DNA from: an uncultured Litoreibacter sp.
GTDB lineage: Bacteria; Pseudomonadota; Alphaproteobacteria; Rhodobacterales; Rhodobacteraceae
DNA: 64,000 bases
Direction: 5' to 3'
NCBI GenBank assembly: GCA_947494645.1
Contig: CANLVO010000001.1
Location: 2,108,001 to 2,172,000 of the forward strand
Part shown: positions 28,427 through 59,552 of the stretch, piece by piece
How the letters are laid out: each line of letters begins with the position of its first letter
Numbering within the stretch: the first letter of the stretch is position 1
Made by a program: the position numbers and the translations under genes
Notes under the pieces: generated by a model
Databases searched by the model: none
What the model was told of the DNA's origin: nothing
What the model saw: the letters and a program-made list of their open reading frames with translations, nothing else

Positions 28427-29143
28427 TTAGACGACGATCAGCCCGTGCGTCAGCGCGGTGGCCACGGCATGGACCGTGTTCGATGCGCCCATCTTGAAAC
28501 GGGCACTCTCGATATAGACCCGTAGCGTATTTTCGGAAATGTTCAGCGCCTCGGCCACGCCTGCGCGGTTATTGCCGAGCGCCAGAAGCGTCAGCGCATC
28601 TTTCTCGCGCGGGCTCAGCGCACGGACCGGGCCTTGGTTCGGCCCACCTTCAATCTCCAGCGCTTTTTCATTCATGTAATGTGCAATCAGGATAAGGTCC
28701 GAGACCCGTTCCTCAGTAAATTTTGCCCAGCGGTCGTCATTGTCTTTTTGGTTTACGGAAAACAAGGCGAACTGCCCGGACGGGCCACGGATCGGGATTG
28801 AGAACCCTTGATTGCCTAGCCCTGCACTGGCGGATTCACCTAGGAAGTCTCGGCTTGGTTTGGCCGACCAGTCCAGCGCTTTCCAATCTATGGGCGTGAA
28901 GCGTTTGTAGCAGCCCTGAACCACCGGATCGATGCGCTCATAGCCCTTGTCGATGTAGCGTTCGACCCATTCGTTTGAATAGGTCAGCGCCGCGTATTGG
29001 CCGCCGCTGGCATTGACGGAATGGTAAACGAGGTTGTCTATGGAATATACGTCGCGCAACCCTTCGACGAAGGTCTGTAACTCTTCAAGCGATCTGGCGC
29101 TTGCAAGCGCCTCCTGCATGTCCACGAGTTTGTTCAAGCTCAC
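28427..29143 (-). CDS. luxR: LuxR family transcriptional regulator (autoinducer-binding domain plus HTH)
   Basis: Autoinducer-domain pattern and HTH ALSPREKDALTLLALGNNRAGVAEALNISENTLRVYIESARFKMGASNTVHAVATAL. Start uncertain (29182 to 29119). Confidence 0.88.
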   Translation of the reverse strand: MSLNKLVDMQEALASARSLEELQTFVEGLRDVYSIDNLVYHSVNASGGQYAALTYSNEWVERYIDKGYERIDPVVQGCYKRFTPIDWKALDWSAKPSRDFLGESASAGLGNQGFSIPIRGPSGQFALFSVNQKDNDDRWAKFTEERVSDLILIAHYMNEKALEIEGGPNQGPVRALSPREKDALTLLALGNNRAGVAEALNISENTLRVYIESARFKMGASNTVHAVATALTHGLIVV

Positions 29144-29294
29144 ATACCCTCGATACGGGCATGTCAGCGTCGGAGAGCTCACGTGCCGCTAAAGCAATCG
29201 TGTCGTCGAGCCCGTCAGCCAGTTTGCGCATACTGTTCTTCTGAGAAAAACGCTGCAGGTCGGTCAGAACGTCGATGATCCAATCATTTGTCAT
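29085..29294 (-). CDS. Small conserved-looking protein (about 69 aa) overlapping luxR
   Basis: MTNDWIIDVLTDLQRFSQKNSMRKLADGLDDTIALAARELSDA...; GGAG 9 nt upstream of the ATG. Confidence 0.6.
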   Translation of the reverse strand: MTNDWIIDVLTDLQRFSQKNSMRKLADGLDDTIALAARELSDADMPVSRVCELEQTRGHAGGACKRQIA

Positions 29295-29508: not shown

Positions 29509-30801
29509 CTAGACTTGACGGCTGGCCTCCAGCGTATCCTCAAACGTGCTGAGCCCGGTCTGCGTCGCGGTGACAAGCACCGCCATGTTGCCCGGTTTAT
29601 GCTCGTTGCGCAGCATTTTGGTATGCGCCTGCGGGATCTCGTCCCACGGAAAAACCTCCGACATGCAGGGGTCCAGACGACGCTCCACCATCAGCTGGTT
29701 GGCGGCCGAGGCCTGCTTGAGATGCGCAAAGTGGGAGCCCTGAACACGCTTCTGATGCATCCACAAATAGCGCGCATCCATGGTCAGGTTATAGCCCGTG
29801 GTGCCCGCACAGATCACGACCATGCCGCCCTTTTTGCAGACAAACACAGACGCCGCCATCGTGCTTTCGCCGGGGTGCTCGAACACCATGTCGACATTGT
29901 TGCCCTTGCCAGTGATGTCCCAGATGGCCTTGCCAAACTTGCGGACCTCGCCGAACCATTCCTTGTACTCCGGTGAGTTCACGGTGGGCATCTGCCCCCA
30001 GCAGTTGAAATCCTTGCGGTTCAGCACGCCCTTAGCGCCCAGCCCCATAACGAAGTCACGTTTGCTTTCATCGGAGATCACGCCGATGGCGTTTGCACCC
30101 GCCGTGTTCGCCAATTGAATTGCGTAGGAGCCGAGACCGCCCGACGCGCCCCAGACCAGAACGTTCTGACCCGGCTTCAGCTCATGTGGGTGGTGGCCAA
30201 ACAGCATCCGGTAGGCCGTGGCCAGTGTCAGCGTGTAACACGCGCTTTCTTCCCAGCTGAGGTGCTGAGGGCGTGGCATAAGCTGCTGACTTTGCACCGT
30301 GGTGAACTGCGCGAAAGACCCATCCGGCGTCTCGTAGCCCCAAATCCGCTGGGAGTTGGAGAACATCGGGTCGCCGCCATTACAATGCTCGTCATCCCCG
30401 TCATCTTGGTTGCAGTGGATCACCACCTCGTCGCCGACCTTCCAACGAGTGACCTTGTCGCCCACGGCCCACACGATGCCCGACGCGTCGGAACCCGCGA
30501 TGTGGTAAGGCTCGCCATGCACGTCAAACGGGCTCAAAGGCACGCCAAGGCCGGCCCAGACGCCGTTATAGTTCACACCTGCAGCCATCACCAGAACCAC
30601 AACCTCGTGACTGTCAGGCTGTTTGACATCAACGACTTCGGACATGAAGGCCTGCTCAGGCTCGCCATGGCGTTCACGGCGGATCGCCCAAGCGTACATC
30701 TGTTTTGGTACATGGCCCAATGGGGGAATTTCACCAACCTCGTAGAGGTCCTTTATAGGGGCGTCGTAATCCATAACTGTCTCTCGCGTATCCAAAGCCA
30801 T
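29509..30801 (-). CDS. ccr: Crotonyl-CoA carboxylase/reductase
   Basis: DLYEVGEIPPLGHVPKQMYAWAIRRERHGEPEQAF; GASGGLGSYAIQLANTAGANAIGV. Confidence 0.96.
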   Translation of the reverse strand: MALDTRETVMDYDAPIKDLYEVGEIPPLGHVPKQMYAWAIRRERHGEPEQAFMSEVVDVKQPDSHEVVVLVMAAGVNYNGVWAGLGVPLSPFDVHGEPYHIAGSDASGIVWAVGDKVTRWKVGDEVVIHCNQDDGDDEHCNGGDPMFSNSQRIWGYETPDGSFAQFTTVQSQQLMPRPQHLSWEESACYTLTLATAYRMLFGHHPHELKPGQNVLVWGASGGLGSYAIQLANTAGANAIGVISDESKRDFVMGLGAKGVLNRKDFNCWGQMPTVNSPEYKEWFGEVRKFGKAIWDITGKGNNVDMVFEHPGESTMAASVFVCKKGGMVVICAGTTGYNLTMDARYLWMHQKRVQGSHFAHLKQASAANQLMVERRLDPCMSEVFPWDEIPQAHTKMLRNEHKPGNMAVLVTATQTGLSTFEDTLEASRQV

Positions 30802-33248: not shown

Positions 33249-35228
33249 ATGACCGAGACCAAGACCGACCGCCCCAAGGACAGACCTTGGCTTTTTCGGA
33301 CCTATGCCGGCCACTCTACCGCCAAGGCGTCAAACACGCTTTACAAAGGCAATCTGGCCAAGGGGCAGACGGGCTTGTCGGTTGCCTTCGACCTGCCCAC
33401 ACAAACCGGCTATGACAGTGACCACGAGCTGTCACGCGGCGAGGTGGGCAAGGTCGGCGTGCCCGTGGCGCATTTGGGCGACATGCGAGCATTGTTTGAT
33501 GAGATCCCCCTCGACCAAATGAACACCTCCATGACGATCAACGCGACCGCCCCTTGGCTGTTGTCGCTCTACATCGCTGTGGCAGAGGAACAAGGCGCGG
33601 ACATCTCCAAGCTGCAAGGCACGGTACAAAACGATATCATCAAGGAATACCTGTCGCGCGGCACGTATATTTGCCCGCCCCAGCCCTCCCTGCGCATGAT
33701 CACCGACGTCGCCGCCTATACGCGCGAGCATCTGCCCAAATGGAACCCGATGAACGTCTGTTCCTACCACCTGCAGGAAGCTGGTGCGACGCCCGAACAG
33801 GAGCTGGCCTTCGCGCTTGCCACGGCCACAGCCGTGCTGGACGACTTGCAAAACAAGGTCCCTGCAGAGCATTTCCCCGCCATGGTCGGGCGGATCAGCT
33901 TCTTCGTAAACGCGGGCATCCGCTTCGTGACCGAGATGTGCAAAATGCGCGCCTTTGTCGACCTCTGGGACGAAATCACCCGGGACCGCTACGGCGTCGA
34001 GGACCCCAAGTTCCGCCGCTTCCGCTACGGAGTGCAGGTGAACTCCCTGGGCCTGACGGAGCAGCAGCCCGAAAACAACGTCTACCGCATCCTCATTGAG
34101 ATGCTGGCCGTGACGCTCTCCAAAAACGCGCGAGCGAGAGCCGTGCAACTGCCGGCCTGGAACGAGGCGCTGGGCCTGCCCCGCCCCTGGGACCAGCAAT
34201 GGTCGCTGCGCATGCAGCAGATCATGGCGTTTGAGACCGACCTTCTGGAATATGACGACCTGTTCGACGGCAACCCCGCCGTGGACCGTAAGGTCGAAGC
34301 CCTCAAGGAAGGCGCCCGCGCCGAGCTCGCCACCATCGACGCGATGGGCGGCGCGAACGAGGCGATTGAGTATATGAAGTCCCGCTTGGTCGAAGCCAAT
34401 GCGAACCGTCTTGGCGGTATTGAGACGGGCGAAACCACCGTGGTCGGTGTCAACAAATACCAACAGCACGAAGAAAGCCCGCTGACTGCTGGCGACGAGG
34501 CCATCATGGTGGCCGACGCCGACGCAGAAGCGGACCAGATCGCGCGCCTGAACGCGTGGCGGGAGGCACGCGATCAGGCCGCGGTCGACAACGCAATGGC
34601 TGACCTGCGCGAGGCCGCGCAATCCGGTGCAAACATCATGCCGGCCTCCATTCAGGCCGCAAAGGTTGGCGTCACCACCGGCGAATGGGGCGATATGGTG
34701 CGTCAGGCGTTCGGCCAGTATCGCGGCCCCACGGGCGTGTCGCGTAACCCGTCCAACCGCACCGAAGGGCTTGACGATATTCGCCAACGGGTCGACGCGG
34801 TCTCTGACAAGCTGGGCCGCCGCCTGAAATTCCTCGTCGGCAAGCCGGGCCTCGACGGGCACTCGAACGGGGCGGAGCAAATCGCCGCCCGCGCCCGCGA
34901 CTGCGGCATGGATATCACCTATGAGGGCATCCGGCTGACCCCCGACGAGATCGTCAGCGCGGCCTTGAAAGACGAGGCACATGTCGTCGGCCTGTCAATC
35001 CTGTCCGGCTCCCACATCCCACTGATCGCCGATCTGATGAAGAAGATGCACACAGCTGGCGTCGGCCATATCCCGGTGGTGGTCGGCGGCATTATTCCCG
35101 AAGACGACGCCAAACGCCTGCGCGCGATGGGCGTGGCCAAAGTGTACACCCCCAAGGATTTCGAGCTGAACGTCATCATGAACGACCTCGTCACCCTCGT
35201 GGATCCGGCCGGAATCGCCGCAGAATAA
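33249..35228 (+). CDS. ecm: Ethylmalonyl-CoA mutase (MeaA-like, B12-dependent)
   Basis: YAGHSTAKASNTLYKGNLAKGQTGLSVAFDLPTQTGYDSDHELSRGEVGKVGV; B12-binding DGHSNGAEQIA. Confidence 0.94.
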   Translation: MTETKTDRPKDRPWLFRTYAGHSTAKASNTLYKGNLAKGQTGLSVAFDLPTQTGYDSDHELSRGEVGKVGVPVAHLGDMRALFDEIPLDQMNTSMTINATAPWLLSLYIAVAEEQGADISKLQGTVQNDIIKEYLSRGTYICPPQPSLRMITDVAAYTREHLPKWNPMNVCSYHLQEAGATPEQELAFALATATAVLDDLQNKVPAEHFPAMVGRISFFVNAGIRFVTEMCKMRAFVDLWDEITRDRYGVEDPKFRRFRYGVQVNSLGLTEQQPENNVYRILIEMLAVTLSKNARARAVQLPAWNEALGLPRPWDQQWSLRMQQIMAFETDLLEYDDLFDGNPAVDRKVEALKEGARAELATIDAMGGANEAIEYMKSRLVEANANRLGGIETGETTVVGVNKYQQHEESPLTAGDEAIMVADADAEADQIARLNAWREARDQAAVDNAMADLREAAQSGANIMPASIQAAKVGVTTGEWGDMVRQAFGQYRGPTGVSRNPSNRTEGLDDIRQRVDAVSDKLGRRLKFLVGKPGLDGHSNGAEQIAARARDCGMDITYEGIRLTPDEIVSAALKDEAHVVGLSILSGSHIPLIADLMKKMHTAGVGHIPVVVGGIIPEDDAKRLRAMGVAKVYTPKDFELNVIMNDLVTLVDPAGIAAE

Positions 35229-39408: not shown

Positions 39409-39707
39409 GTGCGGCCTCCCAAAGTAATGCCGAAGCGGGTGGGCGCAGGCTCGCCATTTACGCGGCGTGCGATGCAATCGGCCAGAAACTCTTCTTCGGT
39501 TTGTGGGTTTAGGACGCGGTCATCGATGGTCACCGACCCTCCTGCCCTGACACCGCCGGTGCCGACGCCGACACCCACGTTGCCGCTCACGCCATCTGCC
39601 CCGCGCAGGTCTTCACGACATAGCGCATCTGCACGCTCCAGCGTCATCGGCTGAGGTGCACAAGCGACCGCAGCGAGGGGCAGCACTATCGCCACGACGC
39701 GGATCAA
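39405..39707 (-). CDS. Small putative lipoprotein
   Basis: [19 protein letters not shown] lipobox; overlaps the sdhA stop by 4 bp. Confidence 0.75.
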
Positions 39708-41512
39708 TAGACCCGCGCTTTGGGCGCAATTTTCTTAAGGTCAATGCCACCCTCATTATGCGAGGTCAGTGGCTCCAGATGCACGCCGCGATAGTCCAGC
39801 TTGGCTTTGTGGCCTTTGAAATAAGTCAGCGAGTGCTTACGCCATTTCTTGTCGTCGCGGTCGGGGTAGTCCTCATGCGCATGCGCGCCCCGGCTTTCCT
39901 TGCGAGCCTCGGCGGAGACCACAGTGGCGACGGCGTTTGGCATCAGGTTGGCCAGCTCGAGCGTCTCCATCAGGTCGGAGTTCCACACGAGCGAGCGGTC
40001 GGACACCTCAACGTCGTCCATCTTGGCCGCAACGTTGTCCATCTTCTCAACGCCTTCGGCCAGCGTTTTGTCGGTACGGAACACGGCCGCGTCCTGCTGC
40101 ATCGTGGTCTGCATTTCTAAACGCAGCTCAGCCGTCGGCATCGCTCCTTTTGCGTAACGCAGCCCGTCGAAACGGTCCAAAGCGCGTTGCAGGGAGATTT
40201 GATTGATCGGCGGGTTAGGCTCGTTCGGGTTGACCACTTCCGCCGCACGGATGGCGGCGGCGCGACCGAAGACCACGAGGTCAATCAACGAGTTCGACCC
40301 AAGTCGATTTGCCCCATGCACGGAGGCGCAGCCCGCCTCACCCACGGCCATCAGACCAGGCGACACGCGGTCAGGGTCTGACTTGGTCGGGGCCAGAACT
40401 TCGCCCCAGTAATTCGTCGGGATACCGCCCATGTTGTAATGCACGGTCGGCAAAACGGGGATCGGCTCTTTCGTCAGGTCCACGCCTGCAAAGATACGCG
40501 CGCTTTCCGAAATGCCCGGCAGACGCAACGCCAATGTCTCAGGCGGCAGGTGGTTCAGGTGCAAGTGGATATGATCCCCCTGCTCACCCACGCCACGGCC
40601 TTCGCGGATCTCCATCGTCATGCAACGAGACACCACGTCGCGGGACGCGAGGTCCTTATATGTCGGCGCATAGCGTTCCATGAAGCGCTCGCCTTCGGAG
40701 TTGGTCAAATAGCCCCCCTCCCCACGTGCACCTTCGGTGATCAGGCAACCCGCGCCGTAGATGCCGGTTGGGTGAAACTGAACGAACTCCATGTCCTGCA
40801 GAGGCAGGCCAGCCCGCGCCACCATGCCGCCGCCGTCGCCGGTGCAGGTATGGGCCGAAGTGGCCGAGAAATACGCACGGCCATAGCCGCCTGTCGCCAG
40901 CACGACCATCTTGGCAGAGAACAGATGCAGGGTGCCGTCGTCCAGCTTCCAGCACAAAACGCCTGTACAGACGCCGTCATCGCTCATGATCAGGTCAATG
41001 GCGAAATACTCGATGTAAAACTCGGCCTTTTGCTTCAGCGACTGGCCATAAAGCGTGTGCAGGATCGCGTGGCCGGTGCGGTCGGCTGCCGCGCAGGTGC
41101 GCTGCACCGGGGGGCCTTCGCCAAATTCCGTGGTGTGCCCACCAAAGGGCCGTTGGTAAATCTTGCCTTCTTCCGTGCGCGAAAACGGCACGCCGTAATG
41201 TTCTAGCTCATAGACCGCCTTGGGGGCCTCCCGCGCCAGATATTCCATGGCGTCGGTGTCGCCCAGCCAGTCCGAACCCTTGACCGTGTCATACATATGC
41301 CACTGCCAATTGTCCGGCCCCATGTTGGACAAAGACGCGGCGATGCCGCCCTGCGCAGCAACAGTGTGGGACCGCGTCGGGAAGACTTTGGTCACGCAAG
41401 CGGTGCGCAGGCCTTGTTCTGCCATGCCAAGGGTGGCGCGCAAACCTGCGCCGCCGGCACCCACAACCACGACATCATATTCATGGGTCTCATATTCGTA
41501 TTCAGCAGCCAT
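39704..41512 (-). CDS. sdhA: Succinate dehydrogenase flavoprotein subunit
   Basis: [50 protein letters not shown]. Confidence 0.97.
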
Positions 41513-41910: not shown

Positions 41911-42294
41911 TCAAATCACGATGACGGTGAAGATGGTCAAGATCAGCGAGCCCGCGATGACGGCGTAGCCCATCTTCTCTGCGGTCTCCAACTCCCAGCC
42001 ATGGCCGCTGTCCCAGATCAGGTGCCGGATGCCGGCACAGAAATGGTACCAGACAGCCCAGAGCGACAGGAACAACACCAGATCGCCGAACCAAGAAGTC
42101 AGCACCGCGTCGGCGGTTGCGAAATACTCAGGGCCGTAGCTTGCCGCGAGAAACCACCAGACAATCAGGATCGCTGCGACCAAAAGGGCATTACCGGTGA
42201 TCCGGGTGAGGATTGAGGTCATCGACGTCAGCTGTGGCCGATAGATGGAAAGATGTGGGGAAAGCGGCCGGTTCCCCCGGTTGACGTCTGCCAT
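41911..42294 (-). CDS. sdhC: Succinate dehydrogenase cytochrome b556 subunit
   Basis: RPLSPHLSIYRPQLTSMTSILTRITG; HFCAGIRHLIWDSGHG. Confidence 0.95.
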   Translation of the reverse strand: MADVNRGNRPLSPHLSIYRPQLTSMTSILTRITGNALLVAAILIVWWFLAASYGPEYFATADAVLTSWFGDLVLFLSLWAVWYHFCAGIRHLIWDSGHGWELETAEKMGYAVIAGSLILTIFTVIVI

Positions 42295-42422
42295 GGCTGC
42301 GTCCTTCGTGTTGGCTACGATATTTGCTGCAAAGATGTTTAGACGTTTTCGCCAGAGAGTCACGCGGTTGCAGGGCGATATGGGCGCAATTGTAGCAACA
42401 TTTTCTTCAAATCATCGCGAAT

Positions 42423-42451
42423 GTGATCACTGCAATTTGCGTCGTGATCAC
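42423..42451. promoter_or_regulatory. Paired GTGATCAC palindromes, 21-bp phasing, upstream of sdhC
   Basis: GTGATCAC-TGCAATTTGCGTC-GTGATCAC; same architecture as 48624-48652. Confidence 0.82.
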
Positions 42452-43209: not shown

Positions 43210-44247
43210 CTAAACCGGCATCAGGGCCCAATAATCAAGGTCCAGGAGCACATCAGGCAGATATTTCCCGTCGTCACCTTTCAGCGAAAACGGTGCGGCA
43301 CCAGCCCTTTGGGCCACCAACCGAAGCCGGATCGCCCCGATACCGGGAGAACTGGTTTTGGCGATATCCAACACCTCGGACCACGCCTTGATCGTGTCGC
43401 CGCTAAAGCAAGGATTGGCGTGCGCACCTGCGTTCAACCCAACAATCATTTGCGCATTGGCCAACCCGTTGAAGCTCAGCGCGCGGGCAATGGAAATAAC
43501 GTGACCGCCATAAATCAGCCGCTTGCCGTCTTCGCGTGCGGTCGCATCGAAATGCACCTTTGCGGTGTTCTGCCACATCCGAGTGGCCAACATATGCTCC
43601 GCCTCTTCAACGGTGACCCCGTCTACATGATCGATCCGCTCGCCGACCTCATAGTCTCCCAGCCGATGCGGCTCTCCTGCATGGCTGAAATTGTAGCCCG
43701 AGAAATCCAATCCTTCGGGGACAACCAGATCGTTCGCCGCGACCACGCCAGCCAATTCCGGGACGACCGTTTTCGGCGCCGAGGCGTCTATGTCCCGCTT
43801 GCGCACCATGACCCAGCGCACATAGCTCAGCACCGCTTCGCCAAGCTGATTAACCCCCGTGGTGCGCACCCAGACGACCCCGGTTTTGCCGCTGGAATTT
43901 TGCTTGACCCCGATCACCTCAGAGCGCGAGGTCAGCGTATCACCGAGATGCACAGGCTTCAGAAACCGCCCTTCGGCATATCCAAGATTGGCAACTGCAT
44001 TCAGCGACACATCAGGAACGGTTTTGCCAAACACCGTATGAAACCCGATCAGGTCGTCGAGCGGTGCCTCGTGCAGACCGCAATCACGAGCGAACTCGTC
44101 CGAGGAATATAGCGCATGTCTTGCCGGATAGAGCGCGTGATACATTGCCCGCTCGCCGCCCGACAAAGTGCGCGGGACGCCATGCTCGATCACTTGACCA
44201 ACGGAGTAGTCCTCGAAGAACCGGCCCGCATTTGTTTTGGTCGCCAT
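43210..44247 (-). CDS. mch: Mesaconyl-CoA hydratase (MaoC-like)
   Basis: MATKTNAGRFFEDYSVGQVIEHGVPRTLSGGERAMYHALYPARHALYSSDEFARDCG; context with ccr/ecm. Confidence 0.88.
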   Translation of the reverse strand: MATKTNAGRFFEDYSVGQVIEHGVPRTLSGGERAMYHALYPARHALYSSDEFARDCGLHEAPLDDLIGFHTVFGKTVPDVSLNAVANLGYAEGRFLKPVHLGDTLTSRSEVIGVKQNSSGKTGVVWVRTTGVNQLGEAVLSYVRWVMVRKRDIDASAPKTVVPELAGVVAANDLVVPEGLDFSGYNFSHAGEPHRLGDYEVGERIDHVDGVTVEEAEHMLATRMWQNTAKVHFDATAREDGKRLIYGGHVISIARALSFNGLANAQMIVGLNAGAHANPCFSGDTIKAWSEVLDIAKTSSPGIGAIRLRLVAQRAGAAPFSLKGDDGKYLPDVLLDLDYWALMPV

Positions 44248-44450
44248 CAATGCGCCCCCAGTTTGGTGTCCGGCGTGTAGGTGCCCTCCACCTCTTTCAC
44301 CACCGACTGGCCACAACGCATGACGCCTGCCTTGTGATCCCATGTCTGCGTGGGCGAGCCATAAAGCTCCCAGCCCTTATTCAACGCGTCGGTGACCTTA
44401 TGGCAAAAGGCGGATGTGTCTTCTTCACTGAGGAAACGATAAAGCTTCAT
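44247..44450 (-). CDS. DUF1737 domain protein
   Basis: MKLYRFLSEEDTSAFCHKVTDALNKGWELYGSPTQTWD; ATGA overlap with mch. Confidence 0.8.
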   Translation of the reverse strand: MKLYRFLSEEDTSAFCHKVTDALNKGWELYGSPTQTWDHKAGVMRCGQSVVKEVEGTYTPDTKLGAH

Positions 44451-45024: not shown

Positions 45025-45888
45025 TCAGCCCTCCAGATGCGCAATCGCCTCGGCCTGAGCGAGGATGCGCTGTGCAGACGCAACATGCAGGTTTTCGACG
45101 ATCTTGCCATCCAAAACCGCAACGCCTTGCCCTTCCGCCTGCGCCTGCTCAAACGCCGCAATCTGACGGCGGGCCAGATCCAGTTCAGCGTCAGAGGGGC
45201 CAAAGACGTCGTTAGCAATCGCAATTTGCGCAGGGTGGATGAGCGTTTTGCCATCAAAGCCCATGTCCCGCCCTTCCGCACATTCTGCACGTAGCCCGTC
45301 TTCGTCCTTGAACGCGTTATAGACCCCATCGACACAGATCAGCCCTTCGGCCCGCGCCGCAAGCAGGCAAAGCTGCAGGCTGGTCATCATCGCCGCCCGA
45401 CCTGTGCTGCGCAGGTCCTTGGCCAGATCGTTGGTGCCCAGCACAAATCCTTCCATACGCGGGGCGGCGGCAATCTCGGCCGCGTTCAAAATGCCGCGTG
45501 GTGTCTCCATCATTGCCCAGATCTTGGTGTTTTCAGCTTGCGTGATGCCATCCAGCATCTGGGCAAGCGTCGCGATATCCGCACCGCTATTCACTTTAGG
45601 CAGCAGGATCGCATCTGGCCCGGCAGCCGCCACAGCCTGCAAATCGGCTGCACCCCACTCCGTGTCAAATCCGTTGATCCGGACAACGCGGCGCCGCGAC
45701 CCGTAATCGGCACCAGTCAGCGTTGTCGCCAGAAGGTCCCGCGCGCCGACTTTTTCATCTGGAGACACCGCATCCTCAAGATCGAAGATGATGGCGTCCA
45801 CGGCCAATCCTTGTGCCTTTTCCAATGCCCGAGGTTTGGAGCCAGGGATATAGAGCACGGATCTACAGGGTGCCGCGTAAGTTTGCAT
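45025..45888 (-). CDS. CoA ester lyase family; likely (3S)-malyl-CoA thioesterase of the ethylmalonyl-CoA pathway
   Basis: CRSVLYIPGSKPRALEKAQGLAVDAIIFDLEDAVSPDEK; 287 aa; cluster context. Confidence 0.82.
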   Translation of the reverse strand: MQTYAAPCRSVLYIPGSKPRALEKAQGLAVDAIIFDLEDAVSPDEKVGARDLLATTLTGADYGSRRRVVRINGFDTEWGAADLQAVAAAGPDAILLPKVNSGADIATLAQMLDGITQAENTKIWAMMETPRGILNAAEIAAAPRMEGFVLGTNDLAKDLRSTGRAAMMTSLQLCLLAARAEGLICVDGVYNAFKDEDGLRAECAEGRDMGFDGKTLIHPAQIAIANDVFGPSDAELDLARRQIAAFEQAQAEGQGVAVLDGKIVENLHVASAQRILAQAEAIAHLEG

Positions 45889-48623: not shown

Positions 48624-48652
48624 GTGATCACGCAATTTCATGGTGTGATCAC
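48624..48652. promoter_or_regulatory. Paired GTGATCAC palindromes, 21-bp phasing, upstream of sucC
   Basis: TTTTTGTGATCAC-GCAATTTCATGGT-GTGATCACAAATG. Confidence 0.82.
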
Positions 48653-48750
48653 AAATGTCGGATTTTTCTCCTGTCGTGTCATAATCTCCTTTTCTCGCAT
48701 GCCGTGTCGATGTCAAATCATGTGCAACAGCGCATGTAAGGAGAGTGACT

Positions 48751-50008: not shown

Positions 50009-50803
50009 ATGCGCGACACACCTACATATCGCCCCTGTCCCGCCTGCGACGCAGAGCACGCTAGCACCATCGCGGCCTATTCACGCGATGAGTGGGTCGT
50101 CGCGGCATGTGACGCCTGCGACTTTGTTTACCTGCGCAATCCTCCAGCCTATGAGGCCTTGGAGGAAGATTTCGCATGGGAGAAAACCTATGTTGAAAAG
50201 AAGAAGGCTTCAAAAGGCTCGACGTTCTTGTCCCCTTTCGTTCGCAGCCTAAAGCACAAAACGAAGCTTTTCATGCGCGACCGCGATGCAAAGATGCGGG
50301 CGTGGTTCAAGAACGGTGCGGTGCTCGATATCGGCTGCGGCACTGGCGGGCGCATCCCCGCACCCATGACACCATACGGCATCGAGCTGTCCACCGCGCT
50401 GCATGCACAAGCTAACGCGCATATGAAATCGAGGGGCGGATACTGCATCAAGGGCGCAGGAGCCGAGGCGATCTGGGAGTTTCCCGAAGCGCATTTTGAC
50501 GGCATCGTCATGAACTCCTACCTTGAGCATGAAACCGAGGCTCAGAAGGTACTCAAAGGCGCCCGGCGCGCGTTGAAACCAAACGGCAAAATGTTTGTCC
50601 GTGTGCCGAACTACGCTTCGCTCAACCGACGCGTAATCGGGCCCAAATGGTGCGGCTTCCGCTACCCCGACCACGTCAACTATTTCACCCCGGACACGTT
50701 GCGCAGCCTTGCCGCCAAAACCGGGTTCAACCTGAAAATCACCAATCCCCTGACGCTGCCCATTGATGACAACATCAACGCGTTGCTCAGCCCAACCGCC
50801 TAA
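50009..50803 (+). CDS. Class I SAM-dependent methyltransferase with N-terminal zinc-ribbon-like Cys pairs
   Basis: [10 protein letters not shown]...[64 protein letters not shown]. Confidence 0.85.
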
Positions 50804-58847: not shown

Positions 58848-59513
58848 TCAGGTCGCCAGCATCCGCAGACCTTGAGTCACATCAGCCCGGACTGCCACAC
58901 GCAGACCGGGTTCGTCGCCAGCCTTCAACGCGGCCACAATCAGACGATGATGTTGGGGCGGGGTGGTACGATTCAGGCGGCCGTAGAGGTCACACATGGT
59001 GGGGCCAAGCTGGAGCCAGACGGTCTCTGCCATGGCCAACATCGCCGGGGCCTGTGCCCGGAGGTACAGCGTACGGTGGAATTCCAGATTTGCCCTGATA
59101 TAGCCCGGAGCATCGTGTCTTTCGATCACTTGGCCGATAGTTGCATTGATGGACTGCAAGCGGTCGATCAATGCCAAATGCGCTCTAGGAAGGGCTCGGG
59201 CCGCAAGTTCAGGCTCCAACAAGGCCCGTATCGCGGCGAGCTCTTCGATGCGGTCATTGGACAGTTCTGGCGTAGAGACCCGCCCGGAAGACGACAACGA
59301 CAAGGCACCTTCCGCCACCAAACGGCGCACGGCCTCGCGTGCCGGTGTCATAGAGACCCCGAATTCCTTGCCAATTCCCCGCAAGGTCATGGCCAACCCG
59401 GGTTTCACTTCGCCATGCATGATTTGGCTCCTAAGGCGGCGGTAAACCATGTCATTGGCGGCACCCGTAGGGGCTGAACCAGTGGCGTCTGAACTACGGG
59501 ATTGGATCAACAT
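58848..59513 (-). CDS. GntR family transcriptional regulator, FCD-type (start ATG 59513 or GTG 59531)
   Basis: VYRRLRSQIMHGEVKPGLAMTLRGIGKEFGVSMTPAREAVRRLVAEGALS wHTH; FCD-like C-terminus. Confidence 0.9.
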   Translation of the reverse strand: MLIQSRSSDATGSAPTGAANDMVYRRLRSQIMHGEVKPGLAMTLRGIGKEFGVSMTPAREAVRRLVAEGALSLSSSGRVSTPELSNDRIEELAAIRALLEPELAARALPRAHLALIDRLQSINATIGQVIERHDAPGYIRANLEFHRTLYLRAQAPAMLAMAETVWLQLGPTMCDLYGRLNRTTPPQHHRLIVAALKAGDEPGLRVAVRADVTQGLRMLAT

Positions 59514-59523
59514 GGGCGCAAAC

Positions 59524-59531
59524 GTGATCAC
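59524..59531. promoter_or_regulatory. GTGATCAC site at the start of the GntR gene, with a degenerate GATC-centred partner (TGGATCAA, 59503-59510) at 21 bp
   Basis: Direct reading; same palindrome and phasing as the sdhC/sucC sites, but the second box is degenerate. Confidence 0.5.
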
Positions 59532-59552
59532 ATATCAGCGCGGGGTCAATCC

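Follow-up and report, generated by a model that had tools for sequence, protein, structure and literature searches.

Two pairs of the palindrome GTGATCAC precede the sdh and suc operons in the stretch of DNA analyzed in this work (hereafter the window; 64,000 nucleotides from an uncultured Litoreibacter sp.), and each pair is, with a probability of roughly 90%, a two-site operator for AkgR, a GntR/FCD regulator encoded in the same window, which would activate both operons with phased A-tracts as the link. The evidence for this reading comprises the pairs, their conservation, their co-occurrence with akgR, the whole-turn spacing relative to predicted promoters, and the phased A-tracts, all of which are observed at the level of sequence. 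The following sites and genes are concerned:

42423..42451, minus strand: two-palindrome operator upstream of sdhC; exact match, kept upstream of sdhC in relatives
48624..48652, plus strand: two-palindrome operator upstream of sucC; exact match, kept upstream of sucC in relatives
41911..42294, minus strand: sdhC, first gene of the sdh operon (sdhC-D-A-B, reaching to 38304); Pfam/NCBIfam
39704..41512, minus strand: sdhA; NCBIfam TIGR01816
48751..49944, plus strand: sucC, first gene of the suc cluster; NCBIfam PRK00696
50818..58829, plus strand: sucD, sucA, sucB, and lpd, with small genes between them; open reading frames matched to the suc genes of Cereibacter (Rhodobacter) sphaeroides
58848..59513, minus strand: akgR, GntR/FCD regulator; Pfam GntR and FCD domains, co-occurrence with the pairs, synteny

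A methyltransferase gene (Methyltransf_23; 50009-50803, plus strand) is localized between sucC and sucD, which adjoin each other directly in C. sphaeroides. Genes like those of the ethylmalonyl-CoA pathway are found around the TCA cluster (29509-30801, 33249-35228, 43210-44343, and 45025-45888), two of them between sdhC and mdh; they presumably represent crotonyl-CoA reductase-like, mutase, mesaconyl-CoA hydratase, and malyl-CoA lyase-like functions. A LuxR-type regulator with an autoinducer-binding domain is encoded at 28427-29182 on the minus strand.

An earlier note on this DNA described two perfect 8-bp palindromes at each site, separated by a 13-bp spacer (21 bp start to start), and the string GTGATCAC-N13-GTGATCAC is indeed exact at both positions. 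The distances of about 130 and 100 bp to the genes given there agree with our values of 128 bp (sdhC) and 98 bp (sucC), reckoned from the gene-proximal edge of the pair to the likely sdhC ATG (42294) and the likely sucC TTG start (48751). Two further details held only in part. The shared 3' flank is present at both sites, but its AAATTT forms half of a symmetric TTT...AAA outer flank and, as sdhC lies on the minus strand, it is upstream when seen from that gene. Likewise, CAATTT is common to both spacers of the window but is not kept in relatives, in whose alignment the spacer letters vary while the symmetric outer flank and the A/T-rich spacer centre are retained.

The window contains eight copies of GTGATCAC, against 1.04 expected from shuffles. 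Since the single palindrome is common in the genome (128 copies in 3.44 Mb), a lone copy says little, and single copies were ruled out as genome-wide targets by the same count. The scan of the whole genome for the pair with a 13-bp spacer gave two perfect matches, none with one mismatch and seven with two; the perfect ones are just the sdhC and sucC sites, i.e., the pair does not recur at random locations at a similar frequency.

Pattern searches were extended to 298 family genomes, almost all representing different genera, and revealed the pair with at most one mismatch in 264 of them, while reversed-pattern controls gave zero hits in every one of the genomes listed. The footprint upstream of sdhC and sucC, which the earlier note had proposed to look for, is thus family-wide; in loci of other orders that were searched, the pair was found in none. 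When perfect pairs were classified by the downstream gene, 111 of 114 preceded sucC (69) or sdhC (42). The remaining three were located around position 1500 of their loci: before a gene reading as fumC (L037), before sucA in a rearranged cluster (L041), and close to an rpmB-like gene (L231, genome G061). The spacer of the L231 pair is 14 bp long, and the pair may be due to chance. The L037 and L041 pairs suggest that the regulon can extend or move along with genes. With spacers of 11-15 bp allowed, 123 of 146 promoters had 13 bp and 23 had 12 bp, the 14-bp pair of L231 lying elsewhere; the distance between the two sites is therefore fixed, at about two helical turns. This strict start-to-start distance of 20-21 bp fits the "dimer of dimers" previously proposed, and it is the spacing that points to putative cooperative binding.

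The source genome encodes 16 GntR-type genes above the cut-off. A strong ortholog of the regulator from the window (E below 1e-70) was detected in 268 of the 298 family genomes; the pair with at most one mismatch was present in 255 of these, and a perfect pair appeared in 11 more once spacers of 11-15 bp were permitted. Under this relaxed spacing, the pair accompanies a clear akgR ortholog in 266 of 268 genomes vs. 7 of 30 genomes without one (Fisher p = 4e-26, a value inflated by common ancestry and obtained for akgR alone among the GntR genes). The seven genomes with perfect pairs but no strong ortholog (G115, G258, G097, G267, G276, G019, and G033) are mostly fragmented or incomplete drafts, although G115 is rated complete. 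In G110, which has no clear AkgR ortholog, locus L283 has kept a GTGATCAA half-match and A/T-rich tracts before sucC, which may be what is left of a decayed operator.

Could another regulator, of the GntR family or not, occupy the pairs, with the akgR match reflecting the shared ancestry of the genomes? The presence and absence of the pair do follow lineages, and the co-occurrence analysis considered one of the 16 GntR-type genes. Nevertheless, we regard this as very unlikely, as the palindrome recurs before akgR itself, the published AkgR motif is the same palindrome (PMC6365646), and the predicted AkgR regulon consists of the same operons (PMC4344238).

The C. sphaeroides genome was picked by means of the reaction-centre L subunit of R. 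sphaeroides; genome G051 gave a 100% match to this photosynthetic protein and was identified accordingly. It carries perfect pairs upstream of both sucC and sdhC, and its single strong match to the regulator of the window (76% identity) lies just past sdhB. This is also where, from the RSP numbering, RSP_0981 would be expected, a gene which we take to be akgR. For this GntR-family protein of R. sphaeroides, the sucCD, sdh, and 2-oxoglutarate dehydrogenase genes were predicted as the regulon (PMC4344238), and GTGATCAC is listed among the binding sites of AkgR, described as an activator (PMC6365646). The window regulator thus has the GntR and FCD domains, the sequence identity, and the position of an RSP_0981 ortholog, the identity with RSP_0981 itself being assigned by position, and its palindromes are found at both the sdh and suc promoters. 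The earlier note had named AkgR with reserve; the conservation, the co-occurrence, the ortholog position in G051, and the published regulon and motif now agree with that suspicion. Because of this agreement, the motif and the regulator should be considered as already known, and both pairs are, judging from these comparisons, almost certainly AkgR binding sites.

For the analysis of the promoter geometry, 61 sdhC and 85 sucC promoters were aligned on the downstream palindrome; it should be stressed that all promoters, in the relatives and in the window, are sequence-based predictions. The corresponding elements of the window are:

42336..42363, minus strand: predicted sdhC core promoter, with -35 GTGACT (42363-42358) and -10 TAAACA (42341-42336); offset 60
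48685..48722, plus strand: approximate sucC core promoter region; best profile match at a shift of -10, weaker than at sdhC
42376..42422, minus strand: phased A/T-tract region between the operator and the sdhC promoter
48653..48693, plus strand: A/T-tract region between the operator and the sucC promoter, shorter by one turn than its counterpart in most relatives

A GTGAC[AT]-like -35 combined with a -10-like hexamer was recognized in 56 of the 61 sdhC promoters, and their offsets from the operator to the predicted -35 fell into four classes, i.e., 48-49 (n=3), 58-61 (n=44), 70-71 (n=5), and 79-81 (n=4), with none of the 56 between them. At sdhC, the operator and the predicted promoter are hence separated by whole turns only, as is characteristic of an upstream activator dependent on the helix face. 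At least 11 changes among the four classes are needed on the sdhC tree, which is weakly supported. The window sdhC promoter belongs to the main class, and the offset in C. sphaeroides is 59. At sucC, the core promoter is only weakly defined. Most of the shorter-leader promoters there fit best or second best with the core-promoter profile moved by about one turn (L277 by two), and for a few non-modal ones no clear assignment was obtained. The window sucC promoter is one turn shorter than most relatives. The palindrome centres are placed at about -98 and -119 (sdhC) and about -77 and -98 (sucC) relative to the predicted core promoters. The window has -10-like sequences 27-28 bp downstream, which would suggest a class II position for the operator; this was rejected, as the offset is not kept in relatives and, at sdhC, better conserved -35 and -10 elements lie farther downstream.

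Upstream of akgR itself, two elements were distinguished:

59524..59531, minus strand: lone copy of GTGATCAC shortly before akgR, covering the predicted -10 region
59544..59549, minus strand: predicted akgR -35 TTGACC, 12 nt before the palindrome, read from the sequence; similar element in relatives

Among 60 ortholog loci, 49 have the palindrome close to the start of akgR. In those with a recognizable TTGAC-like -35, this element precedes the palindrome by about one spacer length, which places the palindrome over the -10 region. This suggests a candidate site for steric autorepression, by which AkgR would repress its own gene. The single site resembles a repressor site, and many GntR-family regulators act as repressors, so it might be asked whether the pairs are repressor sites as well, or whether sdh and suc are repressed by AkgR in certain circumstances. 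Such a role seems very unlikely given that the paired operators are situated far from the predicted core promoters, on their upstream side and at whole-turn distances, and that AkgR is described as an activator (PMC6365646).

In the DNA between operator and promoter, the A/T content among aligned relatives peaks every ~10 bp (near +2, +12, +22, +32, and +42). The periodic power reached 1.0 at sucC and 0.73 at sdhC, compared with at most 0.08 and 0.10, respectively, in 500 random rotations, and the phase was the same at both promoters. Within the tracts, A and T swap freely without loss of A/T content, and TpA steps are underrepresented (0.31 vs. 0.59 of A/T tetramers). Since A/T richness is common in promoters and the aligned sequences share ancestry, the tracts could represent ordinary promoter composition or inherited sequence with no role in the action of AkgR. 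We consider this unlikely: A and T interchange, sdhC and sucC share both period and phase, and promoters with a longer operator-promoter distance (n=9) have an additional tract near +54. Moreover, lag-10 autocorrelation was absent from control noncoding DNA and from the sucC promoters of AkgR-less family members and of other orders.

The mechanism that we propose is as follows. Each operator would accommodate two AkgR dimers, spaced ~21 bp apart along the same side of the helix, from where they would activate the sdh and suc operons, i.e., the route from 2-oxoglutarate through succinyl-CoA and succinate to fumarate. The phased A-tracts would link the operator with the promoter, probably via DNA curvature or via minor-groove contacts for the C-terminal domains of the RNA polymerase alpha subunits, and AkgR would therefore have to keep a fixed helical face. 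Binding by the AkgR of the source genome, its cooperativity, and bending or alpha-CTD contact are what we infer from the sequence patterns. In a broader sense, we lean towards regarding AkgR promoters as an activation module common to the family, where a phased A-tract array, varying in length by whole helical turns only, couples the two-site operator to RNA polymerase. Nothing directly relevant came up when the literature was searched for the raw motif and for phased A-tracts, and as far as the literature was checked, which was short of the primary AkgR paper, the whole-turn spacing and the A-tract array are undescribed for AkgR promoters.

Across a large bacterial family, these results connect the regulator and the paired operators with the operons that serve the succinate part of the TCA cycle, and they extend the regulon described in R. 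sphaeroides, conserved family-wide, to the source genome. Together, the whole-turn spacing and the phased A-tracts provide a testable model of a GntR-family activator reaching RNA polymerase from roughly 75-120 bp upstream. If the module reading is true, the family offers a large natural set of spacing variants.

Among known systems, class I activators such as CRP likewise require an upstream site on the right helical face, and in curved upstream activating DNA, phased A-tracts or alpha-CTD contacts can help activation. AkgR differs from class I activators in its protein family, its two tandem sites, and the four whole-turn distance classes among relatives. The nearest solved structure by sequence is E. 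coli McbR (PDB 4p9f), which matches over the whole GntR-FCD protein (E = 3e-23). The targets and operator of McbR differ from those of AkgR. PS417_07240 of Pseudomonas simiae, 32% identical to AkgR, has GTGATCAC as its proposed site (PMC6365646), but this regulator of a deoxyribonate cluster involves one palindrome close to the start codon and a different pathway. The closest system is the AkgR (RSP_0981) regulon of C. sphaeroides, with the same palindrome (PMC6365646), the same target operons (PMC4344238), an orthologous GntR/FCD gene near the sdh-suc cluster, and paired sites at sdhC and sucC; it differs in that akgR is located past sdhB rather than past lpd and lacks the palindrome which precedes akgR in the source genome.
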